DNA of 47,900 bases from Acidimicrobiia bacterium (lineage in GTDB: Bacteria; Actinomycetota; Acidimicrobiia; UBA2766): the NCBI GenBank assembly GCA_020850945.1, contig JADZDR010000003.1:1-47900 (forward strand), read 5' to 3'. The notes under the pieces were generated by a model. It worked only from the letters and a program-made list of their open reading frames with translations, made no database searches and was not told the origin of the DNA. This document shows, piece by piece, positions 21,165 through 38,366 of this stretch. The position numbers were made by a program, and so were the translations under genes. How positions within the stretch are numbered: the stretch's first letter is position 1; each line of letters starts with the position of its first letter.

Positions 21165-22139
21165 GTGCGCGTCGCGGTTTCCGGTTCACACGGCCTGATC
21201 GGCTCGGCGCTTCTCGCAGCCCTCGCGTGGGCGGGCCATGACGTCGTCCAGATCACACGACCGGGGGCCGGCTCCGGTACCGACGCCCCCTCTGGGTACC
21301 TGAGCGGCGATATATCGCCGCTCTGGTACCCAGAGGGGGGGTCGGGGAACACGCTCGCGTGGGATCCCGAGAAGGGCAGCGCCGACGCGGCAGCGCTCTC
21401 GCGGGTCGATGCCGTGGTGCACCTCGCCGGGGCGCCGATCGGCGACCGGAGATGGCGGGACTCCACGAAGGCCACCATCCGTGACAGCCGCGCGCGGGGT
21501 ACGCACGCCCTCGCGACGGCCGTGGCGGAGGCCGACCCCCGCCCGGGCGTGTTCGTGTCGGGTTCGGCCGTCGGCTTCTACGGCAACAGGGACGACACGG
21601 TCCTCACCGAGGAGTCCCCGACAGGCGACGGATTCCTCGCGTCCGTGTGCCGCAAGTGGGAGGCCGCCACCGCTCCGGCCGTCGACGCAGGTGTACGGGT
21701 CGCCCACATCCGCACCGGCATCGTCCTCAGCGCAAAGGGCGGGACCCTCGGCCGCATCCTGCCCCTCTTCCGGCTCGGTCTGGGCGGCCGGCTCGGCTCG
21801 GGCAACCAGTGGTTCTCCTGGATCGGCCTCGACGACGAGGTGCGGGCGATCCTCCATGTGCTCGACCACGACGAGATCTCCGGCCCCGTCAACCTCACCG
21901 CGCCCACTCCCGTCACGAACCGCGACTTCACGAAAGCGCTCGGGAGTGCCCTGGGACGGCCGGTGTTCCTGCCCGTCCCACCCTGGGTCCTGCACCTCGC
22001 TCTCGGCCGCGAGATGGCCGACGAGCTCGTCCTCGGGGGTCAGCGCGTACTTCCCGAGGTCCTCACCCGCTCGGGCTTCGAGTTCACACATCCTGACGTC
22101 GAAGCCGCCCTCCTCGCCGCCGTGCACGAGGAAGCGTGA
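21165..22139 (+). CDS. TIGR01777/SDR39U1-type NAD-dependent epimerase with a 22-residue palindrome-encoded insertion
   Basis: 324 residues. The GTG at 21165 has GGGAGG 8 nt upstream and lies 4 bp after the VanW stop. The SDR fold is shown by the nucleotide motif SGSHGLIGSALLAAL, then VVHLAGAPIGDRRW, SGSAVGFYG, RTGIVLSAKGG and WIGLDDEV, and a C-terminal DUF1731-like segment (GREMADELVLGGQRVLP). Relatives such as E. coli YfcH join the first Rossmann strands to the LAWDP-like segment with a short loop. Here residues 39-60 are an extra 22-residue segment (containing GYLSGDISPLWYPEGG) that coincides exactly with a 66-bp DNA palindrome. Removing it restores GSG-RNTLAWDPEKG without changing the frame. 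The physiological substrate of this family is unknown. It is followed 6 bp later by the phosphopantetheinyl transferase. Confidence 0.88.
   Translation: MRVAVSGSHGLIGSALLAALAWAGHDVVQITRPGAGSGTDAPSGYLSGDISPLWYPEGGSGNTLAWDPEKGSADAAALSRVDAVVHLAGAPIGDRRWRDSTKATIRDSRARGTHALATAVAEADPRPGVFVSGSAVGFYGNRDDTVLTEESPTGDGFLASVCRKWEAATAPAVDAGVRVAHIRTGIVLSAKGGTLGRILPLFRLGLGGRLGSGNQWFSWIGLDDEVRAILHVLDHDEISGPVNLTAPTPVTNRDFTKALGSALGRPVFLPVPPWVLHLALGREMADELVLGGQRVLPEVLTRSGFEFTHPDVEAALLAAVHEEA
21280..21345. repeat. 66-bp near-perfect palindrome inserted in frame in the epimerase gene
   Basis: Two 33-bp arms meet without spacer between 21312 and 21313 (GCGATA|TATCGC). 31 of 33 pairs match; the mismatches are T21301/T21324 and G21285/G21340. 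The inner 27-bp arms (21286-21339) have one mismatch. Length 66 = 22 codons; the frame stays open on both strands. Recognisable arm words are CCCCCTCTGGGTACC and GAGCGGCGATA. Confidence 0.9.
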
Positions 22140-38283: not shown

Positions 38284-38366
38284 CCCACGTACCTCCCGCC
38301 CCCCACGTGGGCGTACTCAACCACAACATTTGTGTTTCAGTACGCCCACGTACCTACCACGTACCT
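38284..38366. repeat. Hairpin plus direct-repeat element between convergent genes
   Basis: A 13-bp perfect inverted repeat (ACGTGGGCGTACT at 38305-38317, complement at 38339-38351) encloses an AT-richer 21-nt interior that itself partly pairs (AACCACAA with TTGTGTTT). CCCACGTACCT occurs at 38284-38294 and 38345-38355, and CCACGTACCT at 38357-38366. It lies between the 3' ends of the CitE-like gene and the SHOCT gene, so it may serve as a bidirectional terminator; there is no T-run. Confidence 0.7.

Follow-up and report, generated by a model that had tools for sequence, protein, structure and literature searches.

A 42-nt palindromic repeat of REP-like habit, probably recently spread through an Acidimicrobiia genome, with one copy in frame in a YfcH-family gene

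The window, the whole stretch of 47,900 nt of DNA analysed here, has a G+C content of 68% and carries a 66-nt palindrome inside a gene of the TIGR01777/YfcH family. A repeat search placed the two 33-nt arms at 21280-21312 and 21313-21345, 94% complementary and with a spacer of 0 nt, and a palindrome scan confined the mismatches to the pairs 21285/21340 and 21301/21324, leaving 31 of 33 positions matched. These results confirm the preliminary description of this DNA, which had reported a spacer-less palindrome with arms of this length and agreement, lying in frame within a protein gene; the host open reading frame at 21165-22139 scores 325 bits with the TIGR01777 yfcH profile (cut-off 207). No second palindrome of comparable quality was detected by the scan within the window and nothing in Rfam matched at the element. 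Relative to shuffled sequences, the predicted fold of the palindrome has a z of -9.6 as RNA and -10.9 as DNA. The earlier view that the element itself measures 66 bp is refined, as the palindrome is real over that length and the repeated element is restricted to the central 42 nt (21292-21333). This core differs from the family consensus by a single change, A to T at 21324, while the 12 nt that flank it on either side occur in the YfcH copy only (Table 1).

Table 1. Features of the palindrome and its host gene, in window coordinates.
Feature	Position	Strand	Description and basis
Host gene, TIGR01777/YfcH family SDR-type epimerase	21165..22139	+	ORF of 324 aa, GTG start; TIGR01777 profile match
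66-nt palindrome (core plus copy-specific outer arms)	21280..21345	.	Repeat search and palindrome scan
Left outer arm, CCGACGCCCCCT	21280..21291	.	Non-family; reverse-complementary to right outer arm except at 21285 (1 mismatch)
Extra peptide around core, residues 40-60	21282..21344	+	Disordered loop in the model, flanked by strands 26-31 and 63-67; missing in homologues
42-nt palindromic core, the repeated element	21292..21333	.	Family alignment; 1 mismatch to consensus
Right outer arm, AGGGGGGGTCGG	21334..21345	.	Non-family sequence

The peptide encoded around the core is absent from related proteins. At the corresponding position, class homologues have a linker of about 7-15 aa and the insert is lacking in 29/29 of those aligned, the Corynebacterium glutamicum structure 3OH8 has 7 residues (residues 181-187), and a same-genus orthologue with 69% identity has TRPEAAGAGPGSVIWDP in place of the TRPGAGSGT, insert and GSGNTLAWDP of the window. 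The earlier statement that homologues do not have this 22-residue segment is thus borne out by both the class homologues and the same-genus orthologue. In an AlphaFold model of the YfcH protein (30 sequences), mean pLDDT is 90.3 and falls below 50 at residues 40-60 alone, that is, at the insert, which is modelled as a coil joining two strands. Modelling had been proposed as a check for a surface loop, and the insert indeed emerges as a disordered loop within an otherwise confident fold. Because low pLDDT is confined to the insert and the insert is a coil between strands, it probably forms a tolerated surface loop, and the YfcH copy offers a natural test of palindrome tolerance inside a protein. 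It is also possible that the predicted hairpin, formed in the mRNA, affects the downstream phosphopantetheinyl transferase.

The core belongs to a family of dispersed, near-identical repeats. Within the genome searched (3.91 Mb in 97 contigs, 98.5% complete), BLAST returned 80 matches; since each place is matched on both strands, these represent about 40 places. Per strand, 59 occurrences of the central 18-mer were counted compared with 2 for a control, and the arm sequence occurs 62 times forward and 61 times in reverse compared with 5 and 4 for controls. Fifty-seven places are listed, two of which, at the beginnings of contigs C72 and C82, are a single site counted twice; for this reason, and since other contig ends inside copies may pair up, copy number is given as about 55. 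Copies were read region by region (55 read), and alignment of 52 of them defines a family unit of exactly 42 nt, CTGGGTACCTGAGCGGCGATATATCGCCGCTCAGGTACCCAG, with unrelated flanks, information content decreasing from ~2 bits to <0.5 within two positions outside the unit. Complete cores are free of mismatches in 43 of 54 cases and divergence is 0.57%. Two copies, L043 and L062 (core centres L043:7991 and L062:8064), share a paired G-to-C and C-to-G change at core position 11 in both arms, a compensatory change reflecting either a subfamily or correction through template switching. The genome search recommended in the preliminary description therefore recovered about 55 near-identical copies.

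Placement of the copies was assessed against codon-usage gene calls made in this analysis, not against published annotation. A single copy, that in YfcH, lies inside a gene body (1/52 placed copies), in sequence that is 88% coding. The element lies in 25 gaps between tandem genes, 12 between convergent genes and 8 between divergent genes, with a further 6 at contig or stretch edges; among gaps of 20 nt or more that lack the element, the counts are 191, 32 and 71, respectively. Between tandem genes, copies are situated a median of 23 nt from the upstream stop and 124 nt from the next start. At seven copies the last 12 nt of the neighbouring ORF are core sequence and include its TGA stop (CTG GGT ACC TGA); the remaining two frames are stop-free on both strands, identically so because the core is a palindrome, and the YfcH copy uses one of these. 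This distribution is that of REP-type repeats: tagged REPs adjoin gene 3' ends, occupy tandem and convergent gaps, supply stop codons and in a minority of cases lie inside genes (PMC3733652), and the 42-nt repeat is likewise intergenic, near gene 3' ends, in tandem and convergent gaps and able to provide the stop.

Beyond this genome, the element was absent from 59 class relatives, including one same-genus and two same-family genomes, and was not found in viral contigs, phages or plasmids. Among 84,980 species genomes, a 20-mer of the core has two lone exact matches, in Rheinheimera and a filamentous cyanobacterium, in surroundings unlike the element, and these are probably due to chance. At the copy at 44.8 kb of contig C2, both flanks align with the same-genus sister genome, which is ~46 nt shorter there. 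For 18 further copies with a homologous flanking gene in the sister, the element is present at 0/18 and similarity to the core is at chance level; a search for relics at these 18 sites yielded one 11-nt shared stretch (L034/L167, p = 0.01), unremarkable over 18 tests. In most intergenic regions of the sister, divergence is too high to define exact empty-site junctions. No palindrome family of similar abundance was found in the sister (368 kb, some stretches counted twice; arms of at least 12 nt). The general hallmarks of mobile repeats, namely copies that are nearly identical, flanks that are unrelated and homologous sites that are empty in a relative, are thus all observed. The suggestion of a mobile element made in the preliminary description survives, close homologues being without the 22 residues, the genome containing many copies and the near-restriction of copies to non-coding DNA speaking against an artefact. 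Judged from sequence comparison, about 55 near-identical copies here and absence from the sister and other genomes together identify the palindrome as a lineage-specific element that appears to have spread recently.

The repeat shares features with several known systems and differs from each. Rickettsia palindromic elements (RPEs) insert into ORFs at high frequency, are about 150 bp long and encode a conserved peptide (PMC10969869). As with these, the 42-nt repeat is a palindrome able to sit in frame in a protein gene and add a loop peptide; it differs in being smaller and mostly intergenic, with one genic copy. There is no conserved peptide for the family, as only a single copy is genic, and both habit and size lead us to reject an assignment to the RPEs. 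The RPE-like insertion proposed earlier stands insofar as a palindromic, mobile-type element is inserted in a gene, and fails as a family habit. REPs of the GTAG and CGTC super-families resemble the repeat more closely. They are short, palindromic, high in copy number and intergenic, lie behind stops and between convergent genes, can give the preceding gene its stop codon, are occasionally genic, in some families are confined to one species and may be represented by several families per genome (PMC3733652). In contrast to REPs, the 42-nt repeat lacks a conserved terminal tag (unpaired GTAG or CGTC), its unit being symmetric and its outer bases variable; it is a stem-only palindrome slightly above the 20-40 bp of REPs, nearly all of its copies are identical, and the Y1 transposase (PF01797) of REP/REPIN systems with RAYT was not found in its genome. 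It was therefore rejected as a tagged REP on account of the missing tag. Untagged REP-like families have been described from Mycobacterium tuberculosis, Deinococcus radiodurans, Bordetella, Brucella and Cyanobacteria (cited in PMC3733652). Likened by description and not by sequence, these are similarly dispersed and without a terminal tag, and one is actinobacterial, but no copy of the 42-nt core occurs in the other genomes or relatives searched. The Coxiella MITEs QMITE1/2 (PMC5896051) are also small, non-coding, mobile-looking repeats by gene 3' ends that sometimes produce stop codons or in-frame fusions. The 42-nt repeat differs from MITEs in that it has no direct target duplication at lengths of 2-15 nt and no internal region between the arms; counts of lone arms gave no sign of a parental transposon with matching ends. 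In the strict sense it is not a MITE, as target duplication is lacking. An intrinsic transcription terminator is not indicated either, since the G+C-rich hairpin is present without a T-run and the flanks are G-rich. What remains is a real, recent and species-restricted repeat of REP-like habit without the defining tag or the known REP transposase.

The sequences adjoining the core bear on how it inserts. Direct repeats of 2-15 nt are not in excess at the flanks. Symmetry, conversely, extends beyond the core: 47/53 copies pair across the first position outside it (expected 33), and 10/53 have at least 4 positions paired compared with 1.7 expected. With the outer dinucleotide held fixed (55 copies), at least 4 positions are paired in 10 copies against 4.7 expected (p = 0.006) and at least 5 in 6 against 1.7 (p = 0.004). 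When the flanks are joined, the central dinucleotide is TA in 37/51 and AT in 9/51, and farther out a weak symmetric preference, nGnGYGnG, is seen on each side. A one-sided, tagged flank was not detected, as an orientation mixture model was no better than with re-paired flanks and asymmetry did not exceed that of the control. The YfcH copy is the extreme of this palindromic flank extension, with 12 nt and one mismatch. Symmetric flanks may arise if the element inserts in the middle of short palindromes with TA at their centre, if the target is duplicated in inverted form on insertion or if they are later perfected by template switching, which is known to generate and perfect hairpins (PMC8794818, PMC7202029). 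Some tagged REPs sit within target palindromes (PMC3733652), a partial precedent for the symmetric flanks. A bolder reading, which we consider doubtful, is a new class of mobile palindrome that would move as a self-complementary hairpin without a known transposase and would either duplicate a stretch of its target in inverted instead of direct orientation or go into the middle of short palindromes centred on TA; the flanks left behind would be symmetric and would differ in length among copies, with 12 nt in the YfcH copy. The symmetric extension in any case provides a testable clue to the insertion mechanism.

On balance, we regard the palindrome as probably a copy of a lineage-specific, non-autonomous repeat of REP-like habit, recently copied to about 55 places. 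The 42-nt unit would have landed, or survived, nearly exclusively in non-coding DNA right behind genes. At YfcH, the loop that connects beta strands two and three would have received a copy in a stop-free frame, and the protein would have gained about 14-22 residues with its reading frame still open, as the insertion used one of the two stop-free frames of the core. In this explanation the repeat would move, as opposed to having been put in place by selection; its location bias would be due to insertion tolerance, and the mobilising enzyme would act on a hairpin or cruciform. Several observations count against it. Y1/RAYT (Y1_Tnp, PF01797) has 0 matches in the genome (98.5% complete), the control matching in 6/14 genomes, and IS110 (DEDD) and serine recombinase/resolvase are likewise without a match although controls worked, and all three were rejected as mobilisers; lone arms that might mark a parental transposon are not in excess (62 forward and 61 reverse, controls 5 and 4), and there is no direct target duplication. 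Perfect conservation could also reflect selection for a binding site, and the divergence of most sister intergenic regions prevents exact empty-site junctions from being read. The result is nevertheless a mobile-looking element of great simplicity: a palindrome of 42 nt with ~55 near-identical copies in one species, in whose genome the three tested recombinase classes had no match. REPs without a dedicated transposase, of the CGTC and untagged types, pose an open question (PMC3733652), and this genome represents a recent, clean case.

Selection could instead hold the repeat identical as a functional site, either for a DNA-organising protein, gyrase or an RNA-processing factor or as a bidirectional transcription end signal behind genes. 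A nearly invariant core across 54 copies, the dyad-symmetric weak flank preference on both sides, the over-representation of copies after stop codons and in convergent gaps and a very stable predicted RNA hairpin are all consistent with such a role. Against it, neither the sister species nor any other genome searched has the element, the sister sites show no counterpart, 8 copies lie between divergent genes and one within a gene, and the hairpin is followed by G-rich flanks instead of a T-run. The origin of about 55 copies would also be left unexplained, and a functional site, unlikely in our estimation, would therefore represent later use of a mobile repeat. A slim chance attaches to an RPE-like family that normally inserts in frame in genes; the YfcH copy, in frame and in a loop, and the 2/3 core frames open per strand are compatible with it, but a gene-body frequency of 1/52 and a core of 42 nt, where RPEs as first reported measure about 150 bp (PMC10969869), are not.

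Palindromic linkers occur in some sequencing libraries, and contigs C39, C40, C54, C72 and C82 end inside or near a copy, raising the prospect of a linker or misjoin as the source of the repeat. Linkers would be expected at random positions, whereas just 1/52 copies is in the 88% of the sequence that is coding; moreover, lineage-like variants exist among the copies, for example the paired G-to-C change in both arms of L043 and L062, and one gene reads through in frame. A sequencing or assembly artefact is therefore very unlikely, as the copies follow the REP placement pattern and are nearly restricted to non-coding DNA. Template switching during replication, a known hairpin-creating and -perfecting process (PMC8794818, PMC7202029), could account for the copy-specific outer arms (12 nt with a single mismatch at YfcH) and for short palindromic extensions being in excess at other copies, but a palindrome made in place cannot yield an identical 42-nt sequence at about 55 unrelated sites, which refutes this origin for the core and leaves it next to no likelihood overall.

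Other repeats were observed in these genomes. A second palindromic family of about 48 nt, ACGTGGGCGTACTCAACCACA...TGTGGTTGAGTACGCCCACGT, occurs in the window at 38294-38355 and at many places in the genome (L149-L160, L037, L047), often in tandem at a spacing of 61-72 nt and with varied, partly compensated stems; its half-sites gave 51 forward and 42 reverse matches. The sister genome has a diverged counterpart, ACSTGGGCRGATCCAGACA...CCCACGT (L115, L123, L191, L192, L200, L203, L211, L212), and the second family consequently looks genus-wide with a species-specific interior. The sister also contains several copies of a longer repeat, TAGGAnCnTGGTGTCGAACATGCCATTTCCG..., of at least 90 nt (L108:1203, L117:5252, L175:1779, L180:668 on the minus strand and L207:1873), at first sight non-palindromic and in some copies located right after stop codons. 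Tandem 24-nt repeats, CCACCCGGACCCGGCCAAGCACCT, are present in the genome of the window at L041:3560-3770.
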